A stretch of DNA of 35,227 nt from Bacteroidaceae bacterium (GTDB taxonomy: Bacteria > Bacteroidota > Bacteroidia > Bacteroidales > Bacteroidaceae): assembly GCA_017428785.1 (NCBI GenBank), contig JAFRQD010000015.1, positions 1 through 35,227 on the forward strand. The letters run 5' to 3'. The notes below the pieces were generated by a model. The model did no database searches and had not been told where the DNA came from. It worked only from the letters and a program-made list of their open reading frames with translations. Numbering within the stretch: the stretch's first letter is position 1; each line of letters opens with the position of its first letter. Below are positions 9,860 to 30,890 of the stretch, piece by piece. Both the position numbers and the translations under genes were made by a program.

Positions 9860-10222
9860 CGAAATGTAAAGATTTCTTCCTGCGCCTCGCTTTCTGACGG
9901 CTTGTTTTTGGTCTGGTGGCACTTTTCTACCCCGGAAGGAAAATAAGGGCTTAAATCGCGTTTCTCTCTGTGGCAGGCACTTTCGGAAGAGGAGTTTTCT
10001 TGCGCAGGGCAAAGAAAGTGTCAATCCTGCTGGCTGTCCTGATAAATGAGTCGTGCTTTTCTGCCAAATTCAGCCTGCGGGGATGGGCAACTTAACACAG
10101 GGAAATTGCAAACTTCGCGTGCGGCGTTTGGCATTTTCGCGTGCGGCGTTTGAAATCTCTCCCTGCCAAGTCTGCGAATGCCGCGTTTTTCGATACATTT
10201 TTTGTAAAGGATTTTCCACCAA
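9860..10222. repeat. Dispersed intergenic element, copy A (head, 22-bp array, tail)
   Basis: This ~350-bp stretch in the 556-bp gap between ftsK and the MBL gene is a diverged copy of 18952-19310. Shared head blocks include GGCTTGTTTTTG, GTGGCACTTTTCTACCC and GGGCTTAAATCGCGTTT, then GGGCAAAGAAAGT. The tail shares TTTTGTAAAGGATTTT. Between them lies a seven-unit 22-bp array (10022-10175). No convincing gene is seen; short minus-strand frames here have 22-residue periodicity because the unit is not a multiple of three. Flanks 9747-9859 and 10223-10265 show nothing recognisable. Confidence 0.85.
10022..10175. repeat. 22-bp tandem array in element A, seven units
   Basis: Seven contiguous 22-bp units start at 10022, 10044, 10066, 10088, 10110, 10132 and 10154. 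Units 5 and 6 are nearly identical (TTCGCGTGCGGCGTTTG). Others keep CGTG, CCTG or CACA at unit positions 9-12 and start with AAA, AAT or CAA. There are no spacers. Confidence 0.88.
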
Positions 10223-14192: not shown

Positions 14193-14302
14193 ACTATCCA
14201 CGTTATAAATTCATTTAACCCACGTGATATTTTTATTTTAACACGGTGATAAATTGATTCTACCCATGTGATAATTTCAATTAACCCACGTGATGTTTTC
14301 TG
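14193..14302. repeat. 22-bp tandem array, five units (A/T-rich variant)
   Basis: Five contiguous 22-bp units start at 14193, 14215, 14237, 14259 and 14281. Unit positions 9-12 are CGTT, CGTG, GGTG, TGTG and CGTG, preceded by ACCCA or similar and followed by ATA or ATG. It lies in the convergent gap between pheS and the DUF4419 gene. No gene is seen in this 310-bp gap; 14128-14192 and 14303-14385 hold nothing recognised. Confidence 0.85.
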
Positions 14303-16513: not shown

Positions 16514-18540
16514 GATAGTATCTTCTTTACCTGGTTATATACGTTTGAGGCTGTGAAGCCGAGTTTCTCGTCGAGCACTTTGTAGGGAGCGGAGAAGCCG
16601 AAGCTTTCGAGGCCCCAGATTGTGCTGCGGGGGTCTGCTCCGATGAGGAAGCTTTGCAGGTTGACGGGCAGGCCGGCTGTGAGGCCGAAGACTTTTGCTC
16701 CGTCAGGCACTACGCTCTTCTGGTATGCGACAGGTTGCTCACGGAACAGGCCTTCGCTGGGAACGCTGACGATGCGAACCTTGTGGCCGTCCTTGCGGAG
16801 GAGGTTTGCTCCTGCAACAAGGGTGCTGACTTCGGAACCCGTGGCAACCATAATGATGTCGGGATTCTCGTCGCTTCCTGCCACGATGTAGCCGCCCTTG
16901 CGAGCCTGCTCGTAGTCGTTTCCTTCGGGAAGGTTCTCGATGTTCTGACGGCTGAGGATGAGAGCTGTAGGCGTCTCCATGTTCTCCATCGCCATTGCCC
17001 AAGCTGTAGTGGTCTCCTTGGCATCAGCTGGTCGCAGCACAAGCACGGAGTTCTTGCCGCTGTGGTTCTTCAGCTTCTCCAGCAGGCGGATTTGCGCTTC
17101 CTGCTCGACGGGTTCGTGCGTCGGACCGTCCTCGCCTACACGGAAGGCGTCGTGTGTCCAGATGAACTTCACGGGCACTTGCATCAGGGCAGCCATACGG
17201 ACGGCGGGCTTCATGTAATCAGAGAAGACGAAGAACGTGCCGCAGGCAGCAACGACTCCTCCATGGAGCATCATGCCGATGCAGCAGCATGCCATCGTGA
17301 GCTCGGCCACGCCTGCCTGCAGGAAGTTCCCGCCGTAGTTGTCGCGAGAGATGACAGTCGCGCCTCCCTTGAGGAAACCGTCTGTCTTGTCGGAGTTGCT
17401 GAGGTCGGCAGAGCTCACAATCATGTTGGGCACCTGCTTTGCGAGAAGCGAGAGGCAGGTGGCAGAGGCGTTGCGCGTGGCATCGTTTGGCTTTTGCTCG
17501 ATGCTTTCCCAGTCAATCTTGGGCAGTTTGCCATCGAACCAGTCTTTGAGCAAAGCCGCTTTCTCGGCATTCTGTTTTGCCCAAGCCTCTTCCTCTTCAT
17601 ATCGAGCGGCAGCAATTCCTTCCAGTTCCTTGAGGCGAGCCTCGTAGAGTGCCTTCACTTCGGGGAAGATGGCGAAGGGCTCGTCGGGATTGCCGCCGAG
17701 GTTGGTAATCGTATTGCGGAAAGCATCGCCTCCGAGCGGGGCGCCATGTGTCTTGCAATTGCGTTCGTAGCTGCTGCCATCGTCTTTGAGCGCGCCTTTG
17801 CCCATGATGCAATGACCGATGATGAGCGTCGGCTTGCCGCTTACAGCCTTTGCCTTGTCGAGCGCCTGGCGGATCTGCTCCACATTGTTGCCTTCAATCT
17901 CAATCACTTCCCAACCGAAAGCCCGATACTTCATGGCCACATCTTCGCAGGTCACGACTTTGGTCTCTGTGGATAGCTGTATGTCGTTGGAGTCGTAGAA
18001 CATGATGAGGTTGTCGAGCCCCAGGTTGCCGGCAATGCGGGCTGCTCCCTGACTGATTTCCTCCTGGATGCCGCCGTCGCTGATATAGGCATAGACGGTT
18101 TCCTTTTGGAAAGAGGGATTGCCTGTCTTTGCATAGAGGAACTTGGCTGCGATGGCTGCACCGATGGCGTATGCGTGGCCTTGTCCGAGGGGACCGCTGC
18201 TGTTCTCTATGCCGCGTTCGTAGCAGACTTCAGGATGTCCCGGAGTAGGGGACTCCCACTGGCGAAGCTGCTGGATTTCCTCGAGGGTGAACTTGTCGAT
18301 GAGCGTCAGCTGCGCATAGAGCATAGGCGCCATGTGACCCGGGTCGAGGAAGAAGCGGTCGCGACCTGCCCAAGTGGGATTCTTCGGGTCGAACTGCAGG
18401 TATTCGCTGTAAACTACGTTGATGAAGTCGGCACCGCCCATAGCTCCGCCTGGGTGACCGCTCTTTGCTTTCTCTACCATAGATGCTGCCAGGATACGGA
18501 TGTTGTCGGCTGCACGGTTCATAAGAGGTATGCTGTTCAT
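16510..18540 (-). CDS. tkt: Transketolase
   Basis: A 676-residue thiamine-diphosphate enzyme of the non-oxidative pentose phosphate pathway. KAKSGHPGGAMGGADF near residue 25, the TPP-binding ISDGGIQEEISQGAARIAGN near 155, the pyrimidine-domain stretch VRMAALMQVPVKFIWTHDA and the C-terminal VPSEGLFREQ are all present. Full length for the bacterial enzyme. It is first in tkt-rpiB-DUF4419. A TAnnTTTG promoter lies about 35 bp upstream, at the edge of the repeat-rich gap to the phosphofructokinase gene. Confidence 0.97.
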   Translation of the reverse strand: MNSIPLMNRAADNIRILAASMVEKAKSGHPGGAMGGADFINVVYSEYLQFDPKNPTWAGRDRFFLDPGHMAPMLYAQLTLIDKFTLEEIQQLRQWESPTPGHPEVCYERGIENSSGPLGQGHAYAIGAAIAAKFLYAKTGNPSFQKETVYAYISDGGIQEEISQGAARIAGNLGLDNLIMFYDSNDIQLSTETKVVTCEDVAMKYRAFGWEVIEIEGNNVEQIRQALDKAKAVSGKPTLIIGHCIMGKGALKDDGSSYERNCKTHGAPLGGDAFRNTITNLGGNPDEPFAIFPEVKALYEARLKELEGIAAARYEEEEAWAKQNAEKAALLKDWFDGKLPKIDWESIEQKPNDATRNASATCLSLLAKQVPNMIVSSADLSNSDKTDGFLKGGATVISRDNYGGNFLQAGVAELTMACCCIGMMLHGGVVAACGTFFVFSDYMKPAVRMAALMQVPVKFIWTHDAFRVGEDGPTHEPVEQEAQIRLLEKLKNHSGKNSVLVLRPADAKETTTAWAMAMENMETPTALILSRQNIENLPEGNDYEQARKGGYIVAGSDENPDIIMVATGSEVSTLVAGANLLRKDGHKVRIVSVPSEGLFREQPVAYQKSVVPDGAKVFGLTAGLPVNLQSFLIGADPRSTIWGLESFGFSAPYKVLDEKLGFTASNVYNQVKKILS

Positions 18541-18574
18541 ATAAACTTAGGTTTTAGGATGAGTAATTCACCCA

Positions 18575-18582
18575 CAAAGGTA
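18575..18582 (-). promoter_or_regulatory. -7 element for the tkt operon
   Basis: TACCTTTG on the minus strand, about 35 bp before the tkt ATG, matches TAnnTTTG. Confidence 0.68.
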
Positions 18583-18668
18583 ATGATAATTGTTGTAAAT
18601 CCCAACCATCTGCCCGCTTTTATTTACTTAAATATGACGAATGGACTGTTTAGGCCCGCAAAATCATG

Positions 18669-18712
18669 TGTATAAATGTGTGCGGTTGGCAAACTGAACG
18701 TGTGTGGCAGGC
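18669..18712. repeat. Two 22-bp units of the CGTG family
   Basis: Two contiguous 22-bp units start at 18669 and 18691, with TGTG and CGTG at unit positions 9-12. They contain GCGGTTGGC and AAACTGAACGTGTGTGG, closely like the units at 30732 and 19199. Confidence 0.65.
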
Positions 18713-18721
18713 TTTCCACAA

Positions 18722-18780
18722 CTCCCCTTGGGAGTCGGAGAGCATGCGCCCATCTCCCCTCCCATTTTAGGGGAGGGGCA
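18722..18780. repeat. CTCCCC/GGGGAG palindromic element, intergenic copy
   Basis: Two adjacent hairpins: CTCCC-CTT-GGGAG (18722-18734), then CCCCTCCC (18756-18763) pairing with GGGAGGGG (18771-18778) around an ATTTTAG loop. It is followed by GCAGAGCGAAGCGAGAGGG. Related palindromes occur at 21286, 21339, 22650, 23713 and inside rho. Confidence 0.8.
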
Positions 18781-18812
18781 GAGCGAAGCGAGAGGGACAA
18801 ATATTAATTGAA

Positions 18813-18919
18813 AATGAAGAATGAAGAGTGAAGAATGAAGAATAAAAAAATTTAAGAATGAAGAATGAAAAATTAAGAATGAAGAATGAAAAAATTAAGA
18901 ATTAAGAATGAAGAATTTT
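18813..18919. repeat. AATGAAG heptamer array
   Basis: Perfect and degenerate copies of AATGAAG and AGTGAAG, interrupted by short A-rich stretches, cover just over 100 bp. This is the longest heptamer region in the window. It matches the TTCTTCA array at 12981 on the opposite strand. Confidence 0.85.
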
Positions 18920-18951
18920 GAATTGTCTCCATTCCACCTCGGCCTTCGGTT

Positions 18952-19310
18952 TTTGTAAACATTCTTTCCTGGCAAACGCTCTCTGGCGGCTTGTTTTTGC
19001 TCCTGTGGCACTTTTCTACCCTGAAGGCAAAATATGGGCTTAAATCGCGTTTCCCTTTGTGAATGGTTGTTTGCGAGGAGGCTTTTTGACGAGACGGGCA
19101 AAGAAAGTACAATCTTCGTGCGCCAAATAGCAAAACGGAGCGTGCTTTGAGGCCGATTTCCCTGTGGGGCGTTTGCCAACTCCGCATGGGGTAATTGCCA
19201 ACTCCGCGTGCGGCGTTGGCCAACTTCGCGTGCGGCGTTTGAAATCTCTTCATGTGGCGTTCCCAATGGCCTCATTTTTCGACTGTATTTTTGTAAAGGA
19301 TTTTTCACCT
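18952..19310. repeat. Dispersed intergenic element, copy B (head, 22-bp array, tail)
   Basis: The second copy of the element at 9860-10222, same orientation: the same head blocks (GGCTTGTTTTTG, GTGGCACTTTTCTACC, GGGCTTAAATCGCGTTT, GGGCAAAGAAAGT), a seven-unit 22-bp array (19110-19264) and the tail TTTTGTAAAGGATTTTTCACC. It sits between the divergent tkt and phosphofructokinase genes. Minus-strand translations of the two copies look alike (RETRFKP, EISNAARE, RRTRS), but this follows from nucleotide similarity and I do not call a gene. 19311-19400 shows nothing further. Confidence 0.85.
19110..19264. repeat. 22-bp tandem array in element B, seven units
   Basis: Seven units start at 19110, 19133, 19155, 19177, 19199, 19221 and 19243; one extra base sits between units 1 and 2. 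Unit positions 9-12 are GTGC, CGTG, TGTG, CATG, CGTG, CGTG and CATG. Units 5 and 6 differ at only a few positions from each other and from units 5 and 6 of copy A. Confidence 0.88.
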
Positions 19311-19400
19311 CTTTTCCTGTTGATAAACGATAAATCCTGACGAAGTACATTCACGGCTGCCGCCTTTGCTTTTTGAGCGGAAACGAAAGAATAAGCAAAA

Positions 19401-19432
19401 ACTCTAACCCCTAAACTCTAAAACTCTAAACT
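19401..19432. repeat. ACTCTAA heptamer array upstream of the PFK promoter
   Basis: Units ACTCTAA, CCCCTAA, ACTCTAA and AACTCTAA end 9 bp before the -7 element at 19441, overlapping the expected -33 region. Confidence 0.7.
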
Positions 19433-19440
19433 TTTTTTCG

Positions 19441-19448
19441 TACCTTTG
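19441..19448 (+). promoter_or_regulatory. -7 element for the phosphofructokinase gene
   Basis: TACCTTTG followed by CAGCC is a textbook Bacteroidetes -7 element. The first possible start codon (19489) is 40 bp downstream and the likely true start (19630) is 181 bp downstream. Confidence 0.75.
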
Positions 19449-19629
19449 CAGCCGAAATAAGCAGAAACACCTCATTAACTGAAGAATCATGAGGAAAATC
19501 ATGACTTTCTTCGTCTGCTGTCTTTCCCAGACCTGTTTATGGTCTAACCGTACGGCCTGTGCGGAAGATGTAACTACAAGAACAGATACATTATATTATT
19601 ATATAAATAAACAACAAACAAAAAGAATC
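19449..19629 (+). other. Long 5' leader of the phosphofructokinase mRNA
   Basis: About 180 nt between the promoter and the likely start. It contains an in-frame ATG at 19489 with no stop before the PFK start, so a 47-residue N-terminal extension is formally possible. Two small hairpins can form: AGACC/GGTCT (about 19538-19554) and CCGTAC/GTGCGG just after. The last 50 nt are very A/T-rich. The context AGAATCATGA occurs at both start codons. Confidence 0.55.
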
Positions 19630-24356: not shown

Positions 24357-24509
24357 AGAACATGTTTCCGCTCGGATGTGTTTGCAATCCGGCCGCAATA
24401 TCCTGCCTCGGCCATCCTTGATTCTCGCTTTTCTATTATATGTTGTACCTTTGACTTGCGCTTGAAATTACTCTCGCTATAAAATAAAAAGAAAAACTTT
24501 GGCTTTCTT

Positions 24510-24540
24510 TTTGTATTTCGCTTGCTTATTCGTAATTTTG
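24510..24540 (+). promoter_or_regulatory. Promoter abutting the YqiA-like gene
   Basis: TTTG (24510-24513), a 19-bp spacer, then TAATTTTG (24533-24540) form a complete Bacteroidetes promoter. Transcription should begin about 6 nt later, essentially at the GTG start codon at 24546. A second possible -7 element (TACCTTTG) is at 24446-24453 without a good -33. Confidence 0.68.
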
Positions 24541-24545
24541 TGCCC

Positions 24546-25139
24546 GTGAAGAAAGTGCTATACATACATGGCTTCGCTTCAGCAGGCAGTACAGGTTCTG
24601 CCACACAGATGCGCAATCATCTCTATCCGAAAGGCGTGCAGGTGATTAGTCCTGATGTGCCGGTCAATCCTCTTGAAGCTATTGCCTTCCTGAAAGACCT
24701 CGTGCAGAAGGAGCAGCCCGACCTCATCGTGGCAACAAGTATGGGGGCTCTCTATGCAGAGCAACTCAAGGGCATAAAGCGGATACTTGTCAACCCTTCC
24801 TTCCACATGGCCCGTCTGCTGACCTTCAGAGGATTGGGACGACATGAGTTCCGCAATAAGAGGCAAGACGGTGCAACAGAGTTTAAGGTTGACAAGGAGA
24901 TGATTCAGGCTTTCCAACAAGTCGAGAAGGAGAGCTTTAAGGGCATTGATGCCACAGAGAAGGCACTTGTGTGGGGACTCTTTGGCACGCAGGACAAACT
25001 CGTCAACTGCCAGGCTGACTTTCTGAAGCATTATGGTAAGGCGCAGATGCAGCTCTTCGAAGGCGAGCACTTCCTCAACGACAAAGTGCTCAGCAAGGTC
25101 GTGATGCCGCTCGTTGAGGGAATCGTAAATTGTAAATAG
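24546..25139 (+). CDS. YqiA/YcfP-type alpha/beta-fold hydrolase
   Basis: A 197-residue predicted cytoplasmic esterase. The N-terminal strand and oxyanion region are KVLYIHGFASAGSTGS, the nucleophile elbow is ATSMGALYAEQL (Ser65), and a late WGLFGTQDKLVN (acid) and FEGEHFLND (His) complete the triad. This is the YqiA/YcfP pattern; the natural substrate is unknown. I start at GTG 24546 (GTG-AAG-AAA-GTG). A TTG at 24522 would overlap the promoter and no ATG fits. The stop lies in a heptamer array just before ffh. Confidence 0.87.
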   Translation: MKKVLYIHGFASAGSTGSATQMRNHLYPKGVQVISPDVPVNPLEAIAFLKDLVQKEQPDLIVATSMGALYAEQLKGIKRILVNPSFHMARLLTFRGLGRHEFRNKRQDGATEFKVDKEMIQAFQQVEKESFKGIDATEKALVWGLFGTQDKLVNCQADFLKHYGKAQMQLFEGEHFLNDKVLSKVVMPLVEGIVNCK

Positions 25140-29726: not shown

Positions 29727-30729
29727 AAGCAGGCATCTTCTCCTTCTCCTCATCCTGACTTTCCACGCCTTGTCAGCCAGTGGACAGCCACGGCTGAAGC
29801 GTTTCCTCTCCCGGGCCGACAGCATGCTCACCGCTCGCTATTACCGCGCGTCGCACGACTCGACCTATATCGTCCGCCCAGAAGGCAAGTTGACGCTCAA
29901 GCTCAGAGGCAACCTCTCGGGCAACAGCCTGCATGCCAAGGGCACCATCGACGGCATCCGAGCCCGCACCGACCTCAGCACCAGCCACAAGGCCACCATT
30001 TCCATCGGCGCTGCCTACAGGGGCATATCGCTCAGCTATTCCATCAACCCTGCCAAGCTGGCTGGTTTCTACAAGGACTATGAGCTGAACTTCGCCTTCT
30101 ATTCAGGTCGTTTCTGCATCGACGCCAGCTATCAGCGCTCCCTCTCCCTGTCGGGCGACATGACGGTGGGAGAGGATGCCTTCCGCCTGGAAAGGAATGA
30201 AGCGGACATGAAGGTGCTCAACGTCACGGCCTACTATGTCTTCAACCATCGGCGCTACTCCGTTTCGGCAGCCTACAACCAGAGCTACATCCAGCGCCGT
30301 TCTGCCGGTTCGTGGCTCGCAGGCTTGAGCTATCAGGGCGGAAGCATCGAGACGAGCGACGACTGGAAAAACCAGCACCCCGACGACTACACCGTTCGCA
30401 TCACCGTGGGCCACCTGGGCATCGGCGGCGGCTATGGCTACAACCTTGTCCTCGGAAAGCGGTGGCTCTTCAATCTCACCTTTTTGCCCACGGTAGTTGT
30501 CTACAATCGCAACAAGATGACTATCGACGGCGAGAGCCAGCACGCAGGTCGCATGCGCTTCAACATGCTCTTCAACGAACGCGCGGCCATCGTCTACAAC
30601 ATCTCGCCACGCTATTTCGCAGGCGCCTCCCTCGTGATGACCAACTCGCTCTTCGACGACAAACACGTCATCGTCAACCAAAACAAATGGCTCGCGCGCG
30701 CTTTCGTCGGCATGCGTCTGTGGAAGTAA
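29716..30729 (+). CDS. DUF4421 family outer-membrane protein
   Basis: A 337-residue protein whose signal peptide (HLLLLLILTFHALSASG) begins inside the end of the patatin gene. The mature region is rich in beta-strands, with DSTYIVRPEGKLTLKLRGNL near the start and GIGGGYGYNLVLGKRWLFNL later, and ends with an aromatic strand (FVGMRLWK). I recall this as the DUF4421 pattern of Bacteroidetes. Function unknown. The 11-bp overlap implies translational coupling to the patatin-barrel protein, so the two may work together in the outer membrane. The stop is followed directly by a 22-bp repeat array. Confidence 0.82.
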   Translation: MNSESRHLLLLLILTFHALSASGQPRLKRFLSRADSMLTARYYRASHDSTYIVRPEGKLTLKLRGNLSGNSLHAKGTIDGIRARTDLSTSHKATISIGAAYRGISLSYSINPAKLAGFYKDYELNFAFYSGRFCIDASYQRSLSLSGDMTVGEDAFRLERNEADMKVLNVTAYYVFNHRRYSVSAAYNQSYIQRRSAGSWLAGLSYQGGSIETSDDWKNQHPDDYTVRITVGHLGIGGGYGYNLVLGKRWLFNLTFLPTVVVYNRNKMTIDGESQHAGRMRFNMLFNERAAIVYNISPRYFAGASLVMTNSLFDDKHVIVNQNKWLARAFVGMRLWK

Positions 30730-30731
30730 GA

Positions 30732-30841
30732 AAAGTTGACGTGTGGATTTGGCAAAGTTGACGTGTGGATTTGGCAAAGTTGACGTGTGGATTTGGCAAA
30801 GTTGACGTGATATGTTTGCAATCATCATGTGTTACGTTTGT
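30732..30841. repeat. 22-bp tandem array, five units (three perfect)
   Basis: Units start at 30732, 30754, 30776, 30798 and 30820. The first three are identical (AAAGTTGACGTGTGG then ATTTGGC); the fourth diverges at its end and the fifth keeps ATGTG and TTTG. CGTG or TGTG is at unit positions 9-12 in all. It begins 2 bp after the DUF4421 stop. Confidence 0.95.
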
Positions 30842-30890
30842 TTTTTTATATTTTTTTCGCCTTACCACTTCACCTTTCATTTATTTTTGT

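Follow-up and report, generated by a model that had tools for sequence, protein, structure and literature searches.

Two intergenic sequences of a Bacteroidaceae contig belong to a family of interspersed repeats of near-constant length

Two otherwise gene-free gaps on a Bacteroidaceae contig hold similar sequences of ~350 bp, each with a head, an array of 22-bp units and a tail, raising the question of whether these are products of random slippage or copies of a defined element and, in the latter case, of what kind. Within the window (i.e. the whole stretch of 35,227 nucleotides that was analysed), copy A is bordered by ftsK and by a gene for a metallo-beta-lactamase-fold protein, and copy B by the genes for transketolase and phosphofructokinase. 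The original prediction had the two copies aligning from end to end in the same orientation, and this was borne out with an identity of 73%; both copies possess the shared head blocks as well as the block GCAAAGAAAGT and the tail TTTTGTAAAGGATTTT. Both gaps had been correctly located, with the true element bounds lying a few bases further in (Table 1). Seven 22-bp units had been proposed to follow GGGCAAAGAAAGT. These are real as a register but only ~4 are clear repeat copies: across columns 161-314 of the family alignment (A1, see below) each 22-bp block of the window copies fitted the central units best at offset 0, with a tie between offsets 0 and -2 for the first block (column 161 on), and TRF reported 3.5 repeat copies in copy B and none in copy A.

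Table 1. Positions of the two copies and of their parts in the window
Feature	Positions	Strand	Basis
Copy A, whole element, 354 bp	9863..10216	+	profile match to model 3-355; alignment A1
Copy A, left end motif AATGTAAAGATTTCTT (family consensus TTTGTAAAGATTTTTC)	9863..9878	+	
Copy A, right end motif TTTTTTGTAAAGGATTTTC, oriented like the left one	10198..10216	+	
Copy A, head hairpin region, A1 columns 102-118, covarying across copies	9964..9980	+	
Copy A, seven 22-bp register units, columns 161-314	10023..10176	+	
Copy A, two central array units, columns 249-288: 18-bp arms and 4-nt loop	10111..10150	+	
Copy B, whole element, 354 bp	18952..19305	+	profile match to model 2-355; alignment A1
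Copy B, left end motif TTTGTAAACATTCTTT	18952..18967	+	
Copy B, right end motif TTTTTGTAAAGGATTTTT	19288..19305	+	
Copy B, head hairpin region, A1 columns 102-118	19053..19069	+	
Copy B, seven 22-bp register units, columns 161-314	19112..19265	+	
Copy B, two central array units, columns 249-288	19200..19239	+	

Further copies were sought in the window's own draft genome (G000; 2.98 Mb, 71 contigs, 84% complete), where BLAST returned 43 matches with copy A and 46 with copy B. A profile built from a first alignment was run over the fetched loci, and matches with a score of >150 that started by model position 60 were taken as full-length. This yielded 49 full-length copies, far beyond chance, which are dispersed and non-coding. 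Forty of the 49 measure 352–355 bp, six carry ~22 extra bases (C32:22785, C36:49652, C42:114982, C43:12211, C47:52775 and C58:20646) and the remaining three (C3:14842, C35:6595 and C43:32830) are shortened or degenerate at the right end. Unit number, which had been predicted to be constant, is not wholly fixed, as the six longer copies carry about one extra unit. Pairwise identity among the G000 copies averages 62% (range 48–91%), with subfamilies reaching up to 91%. Copies are unevenly distributed over the contigs and occur in both orientations; a replichore-polarised motif was rejected as both orientations were present on one contig. Copies A and B are two of ~50 copies of a non-coding intergenic element of near-constant length.

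Gene context was derived from a crude longest-ORF prediction after removal of the small ORFs over the element. The flanking genes were divergent for 15 copies, convergent for 12 and co-oriented for 18; the other four, at contig ends, had one neighbour missing. Forty copies were clear of predicted ORFs and nine overlapped an ORF end by 27–212 bases. No orientation rule relative to genes was apparent for the G000 copies and no common theme emerged among 20 neighbour proteins, four of which were without a Pfam match; neighbours include FtsK, a metallo-beta-lactamase fold, transketolase, PFK, asparaginase, UvrA, a MutY-like protein, GH43, AraC and M16. A gene-linked regulatory element was rejected because orientation to genes is not fixed and the neighbours are mixed. 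The expectation that neither window copy holds a convincing protein gene was confirmed: stops occur in all frames, no frame is open in more than five of the 49 copies, no open frame is conserved and three ORFs over the copies had no Pfam match. A scan of positions 18500–19600 found three sigma-70 promoter-like sites against 1.5 expected and no terminator-like sites against 1.3 expected; the promoters of Bacteroidetes are of a different type.

Both ends carry the motif TTTGTAAAGnTTTTTC, as a direct and not as an inverted repeat. Its sequence is TTTGTAAA[G/C]ATTTTTC on the left and, in the same direction, TTTTTGTAAAGnnTTTT on the right; the two consensus sequences differ by eye, and on this ground the direct ends were rejected as a target-site duplication. 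With up to one mismatch allowed, the motif TTTGTAAAGNTTTTT occurred at 75 sites in G000 as compared to none for a reversed control pattern. Thirty-six of these sites formed 18 pairs with a spacing of 337–339 bases or, for one pair, 360 bases, such that the end motifs stand ~338 bp apart in an element of ~354 bp. A stricter pattern of paired end motifs gave no matches in 15 genomes for gaps of 282–312 and 11 matches for gaps of 313–343 (nine in G000 and two in G034, all of 344–346 bases), a result that says little as this pattern overlooks most known copies. Between the ends, the head consists of conserved blocks (TTTCTGACGGCTTnTTTTTG, GTGGCACTTTnCTACCCC, GGCTTAAATCG and GCAAAGAAAGTA) placed ~29 bp apart and separated by linkers that are variable in sequence and constant in length; a clean helical period of 10.5 bp was not found in the conservation. 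The head is followed by the array of inverted half-units in 22-bp phase, whose 22-bp unit has the consensus AACttcgCGTGcgGcgTTgGCa. Across 96 sequences, each 22-bp block of columns 117-336 fitted the central units best in a single register, with weak matches for the outermost blocks at both ends, and the seven units originally described seem to be the visible middle of a longer 22-bp register.

Some elements combine other heads with 22-bp arrays and with a direct end motif resembling that of the family (L073 on C70, L076 on C40, L075 on C56 and L074 on C59). End spacing is 317 in L073 and L076 and 284 in L075, i.e. shorter by 22 and 55, which hints at 11-bp steps across three cases of which the two 317s look related. 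Additional 22-bp arrays with other units occur in the window at 30696–30848 and 14198–14294 (AAAGTTGACGTGTGGATTTGGC and CCACGTGATAAATTCATTTAAC, respectively), with no end motif seen beside them. A second type of element (L077, C9:18681; L078, C9:35425; L079, C49:48689) has the end TTTTGTAAAGATTTTGG and a short 22-bp array, and the far end of L078 is inverted (CCAAAATATTGACAA). In another genome, a gene is immediately followed by a 22-bp array of different sequence (L162, G013 C4; CATAAGCTCACGAGTCATCGGC), which suggests that such arrays are widespread in the genus.

A separate element of ~298 bp was also encountered in G000 at C9:30071–30369 (L102), at C68:2138–2436 (L093) and elsewhere. This element has inverted ends (TATTGSTGTCCGG...CCGGACASCAATA) and CCCAGGGC..GCCCTGGG hairpins. 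The C9 copy has ATTTGTAAA on both sides, containing the left end motif of a family copy, and the C68 copy has TTTTATTTA on both sides; by eye, the element abuts the ends of several family copies. The outer inverted repeats CGGACAGCAATA/TATTGCTGTCCG were considered as terminal inverted repeats of the family and rejected, as they belong to this separate element of ~300 bp. A Y1 (RAYT-like) transposase gene of G000 (L160, C56:71986–72324) is flanked by CCCAGGGC..GCCCTGGG hairpins and not by 22-bp units, and the shared hairpins suggest that it goes with the ~298-bp element.

The distribution of the family was examined at several levels. BLAST gave matches in six out of 36 further genomes of the genus, whereas none came from 24 genomes of other families of the order. 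A profile from 56 copies matched 47 of 139 genomes of the genus at E ≤ 1e-4, G000 included; as no more than 11 candidates were scored per genome, the copy numbers of genomes other than G000 are minimum values. Full-length matches were present, for example, in G075, G133, G134, G095, G104, G129, G155, G160 and G020, and some of the 47 genomes (e.g. G077) had only weak partial matches. In a family-wide draw of 201 genomes, at least 13 of them of this genus, ten genomes of other genera were matched, nine of them weakly and partially over the array half. The sole full-length match in another genus (G336, L227, C21:1253–1606) is in a 100-contig draft with 5% contamination and may reflect contamination or transfer. 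An exact pattern detected seven stretches among 84,980 species genomes, all in assemblies of uncultured Prevotellaceae, Bacteroidaceae or Bacteroidales; isolates named RUG (for rumen) or Reindeer account for five of the seven. As far as searched, the family occurs only in a single genus of uncultured Prevotellaceae-type bacteria, with one match in another genus. A phage or plasmid origin was rejected: copy A had no match in phage records, copy B had none in plasmid records and the exact pattern was absent from viral contigs. A known RNA family was likewise rejected, as Rfam at the gathering threshold gave no matches in the window; at E ≤ 1, six loci produced a single match at chance level (16.9 bits, E 0.71). 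No published description of the family was found in the literature searched, and the statement that no named family has this layout stands for Rfam, for the phage and plasmid records and for that literature.

To what extent are individual copies retained? BLAST listed 32 places in three related genomes (G005, G034 and G035), of which 20 were fetched; 15 were full-length (14 of 350–355 bp and one of 374 bp) and five were partial. Nine of the 15 full-length copies are orthologous to G000 copies, having like flanks and like orientation. The loci concerned are C36:14268 (in three species), C3:14842 and C58:13825 (two each), and C54:15602 and C63:33334 (one each). Identity of the element to its G000 counterpart was 0.56–0.69 in these nine comparisons, and pairwise alignment introduced 46 internal gap events as compared to 1996 substitutions over 15 orthologous comparisons. 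The orthologous copies kept their ends, head blocks and near-length while the sequence of the array was almost wholly changed, and the intergenic flanks beside them mostly aligned poorly, with a better alignment at C54. The claim of length invariance rests on the 49 G000 copies and on these 20 of the 32 listed loci, which were chosen by BLAST. At the locus orthologous to copy A, G035 has an array only and G075 has another short array. Conversely, the intergenic region at positions 24360–24547 of the window is without the element, and two more of the 15 full-length copies, in G034 (L148) and G035 (L155), lie there in reverse orientation, upstream of the ortholog of the gene at window position 24547. 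The array-only locus in G035 and this empty site in G000 indicate that single copies are dispensable. The occurrence of orthologous loci in different species, with ends, head and near-length preserved while ~40% of bases differ, indicates that the copies are old; they are often kept intact and can be lost. The original prediction of a defined element, and not of random slippage, is strongly supported by copy number, precise ends and near-fixed length, and is further backed by genus-wide occurrence and orthologous retention.

Covariation was analysed in alignment A1, which comprises 56 sequences and omits the 374-bp copy of a relative and eight G000 copies in which units are added or the right end is damaged, and in a 96-sequence alignment with 40 further sequences. 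The additions were picked from full-length matches in the genus, so this larger set cannot by itself show length invariance. In a scan of 57,970 possible 6-bp helices over the 96 sequences, the arms of the central units (centre column 268.5) ranked first with a z of 16.8; nearly all other strong array signals fell in one 22-base register series, and the non-repetitive head hairpin had a z of 5.6. The covariation score in A1 was 0.333 for head plus array as compared to at most 0.139 with partners slid by 1–3 columns, and 0.344 as compared to at most 0.152 for the alternative with two central units (columns 249-288), which form the best-supported covarying arm pair. Arm-swap permutations gave p ≤ 2e-4 in G000 for the head hairpin and the outer array arms; values for the two central units were 0.07 in G000 and ≤4e-4 in 16 relatives, and several other registers were non-significant in G000 or in the relatives. 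These permutations ignore the relatedness of copies, for which the slid-partner control accounts. Perfect 18-bp arms of quite different sequence were present in L207 and L208 of G104 and in L218 of G020. Pairs of arms matching at ≥14 of 18 positions were found in 12 of 55 copies from outside G000 and in eight of 41 G000 copies, against 2% of random partners. Arm complementarity is thus kept in a minority of copies and is far above chance, and covariation is present in array arms and head hairpin alike. The head block pair ACTTT/AAAGT is able to pair but showed no covariation, and in an all-pairs analysis of mutual information with APC the signal was, in our reading, mostly that of subfamily structure.

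Selection on an RNA would lead to G-U being tolerated on one strand, and G-T and A-C mismatches were compared on this basis. Outside G000, there was no G-T excess in strong hairpins (9 G-T versus 13 A-C) or in the head (49 versus 48). Whole-array registers outside G000 had 109 G-T versus 54 A-C and 113 versus 59; for the first of these registers 56 of the 109 G-T mismatches lie in two core pairs and the remainder is even, whereas the excess in the second persists without the core pairs. Of seven pair sets bootstrapped over the 96 sequences, two had intervals wholly above zero and a third had one just touching it. Strong hairpins of G000 had 33 G-T versus 17 A-C. Folding of 14 sequences on both strands gave the lower value for the minus strand in ten. 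The wobble evidence is thus mixed, compatible with an RNA without establishing one.

Tentatively, we infer that the family is of old standing, belongs with interspersed repeats such as BOX and BrickBuilt and is constrained as DNA of fixed geometry, a reading with a reasonable chance of being correct while falling short of probable. Selection would act on the copies as DNA: end motifs, head blocks and phased dyads could form a nucleoprotein platform, with array arms perhaps extruded as a cruciform or a single-strand hairpin, and spacing within such a platform would have to hold the helical register. Such a demand would account for the rarity of gained or lost bases in the variable linkers and for the tolerance of whole 22-bp steps (~two turns). 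The combination of near-fixed length with variable linkers, steps of 22 bp, covariation without a clear strand signature and orthologous retention points to selection on geometry and self-complementarity. The family probably arose by proliferation, as for the modular repeats BOX and BrickBuilt, with later retention. Several findings pull the other way: arms that change freely and yet stay complementary would not be expected of sites for a sequence-specific dimeric protein, few copies reach 14 of 18 arm pairs, single copies are dispensable, the conservation lacks a clean 10.5-bp period, five of the 20 fetched loci of relatives are partial, the whole-array G-T excess is as expected of an RNA, the spread over contigs is uneven with both orientations present, and the central-unit arms are not significantly copy-specific in G000 alone (p 0.07).

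A non-autonomous, MITE-like mobile element served by an enzyme in trans, whose full length is needed for transposition and whose old copies persist by chance, is conceivable but rather unlikely. Dispersal in both orientations, the lack of a neighbour-gene theme in the sample, subfamilies of up to 91% identity, presence/absence differences between species and a layout resembling BrickBuilt and BOX are all compatible with mobility; however, the ends are direct and not inverted, and neither terminal inverted repeats nor the target-site duplications that the original prediction suggested looking for were seen. A clean empty site with a duplication was not among the loci at hand, and a short duplication outside the ends could still be present. 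Old copies (62% mean identity, loci common across species) are also nearly free of indels, unlike the expectation for drift. No mobilising enzyme was tied to these repeats among the Y1 transposases, the enzyme family searched: the only Y1 transposase of G000 adjoins a different repeat, and G005 and G035 (drafts, 84–89% complete) carry the family and have no Y1 match. Were the element transcribed from many loci, as part of UTRs or into a structured non-coding RNA whose array forms hairpins, this would explain covariation in head and array and the excess of G-T over A-C in whole-array registers, which extends to genomes other than G000. This reading is unlikely given the Rfam results, the even mismatch counts outside G000 in strong hairpins and head, an array excess that owes much to two core pairs and to the repeat-unit consensus, the lower folding of the minus strand (contrary to an RNA from the plus strand), the mixed orientation to genes and linkers with few indels, which are unusual for RNA loops. 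It is more improbable still that arm complementarity is a mutational by-product of template switching between near-palindromic 22-bp units, with selection on head and ends alone; such a process fits the occurrence of some complementarity in registers at every 11 bp and the small number of well-matched arm pairs outside G000, but the non-repetitive head hairpin covaries too and the array is nearly fixed in length and position. Among the three options initially offered for the element, a protein-binding or DNA-geometry platform would fit best, a mobile unit is possible, and an RNA has support from covariation for pairing, with mixed wobble evidence and neither strand standing out.

The ~50 elements might constitute a chromosome-wide set in which length, end spacing and self-complementarity are held while sequence may drift, i.e. 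sites for nucleoid organisation or DNA processing at which a host protein reads spacing and DNA structure over sequence across this genus of gut bacteria; this extension is speculative and somewhat unlikely. Repeats scattered through bacterial genomes are usually seen as selfish DNA that decays and varies in length. Same-locus copies across species that retain an almost exact length at ~60% identity argue for a function of spacing and self-complementarity, and the family provides a ready comparative set with many species and tens of copies in G000.

Porphyromonas gingivalis, like the present host a member of the order Bacteroidales, carries a MITE named BrickBuilt. This MITE has a leader, 23-nt tandem units and a tail, is always intergenic, and has 19 copies in ATCC 33277 with predicted stem loops and no Rfam match. 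Its length spans 84–991 nt and its unit number 1 to 22.8, it bears 12-bp TIRs of the IS5 type along with some TSDs, and strains differ through its expansion and contraction (PMC4596501). The same organisation of leader, array and tail, intergenic and multicopy, was found here with a 22-bp unit (nine of the 49 copies overlapping a crudely predicted ORF end). Relative to BrickBuilt, unit number is not freely variable (352–355 bp in 40 of 49 copies and ~22 more in six), the ends are direct TTTGTAAAG motifs without IS5-type TIRs by eye, and copies persist across species with no TSD seen. BOX of Streptococcus pneumoniae is built of boxA, repeated boxB and boxC, is intergenic, dispersed and predicted to fold, and has a variable boxB number and an overrepresentation between convergent genes (PMC3049150). 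Judged by layout against this description, the present family is similarly modular, intergenic, dispersed and predicted to fold but has a near-fixed length and, for the 45 copies with both neighbours predicted, lies between convergent genes in 12 cases and between divergent genes in 15. REP palindromes with RAYT transposases are described as intergenic palindromic units in high copy (PMC3733652, PMC6006769), a feature shared by the present family; a RAYT-REP system was rejected as the Y1 gene is flanked by other hairpins and has no profile match of the family there. We class these elements as a new family among the modular interspersed repeats, one whose layout is known from BOX and BrickBuilt and which is distinguished by near-constant length, direct ends and long retention.
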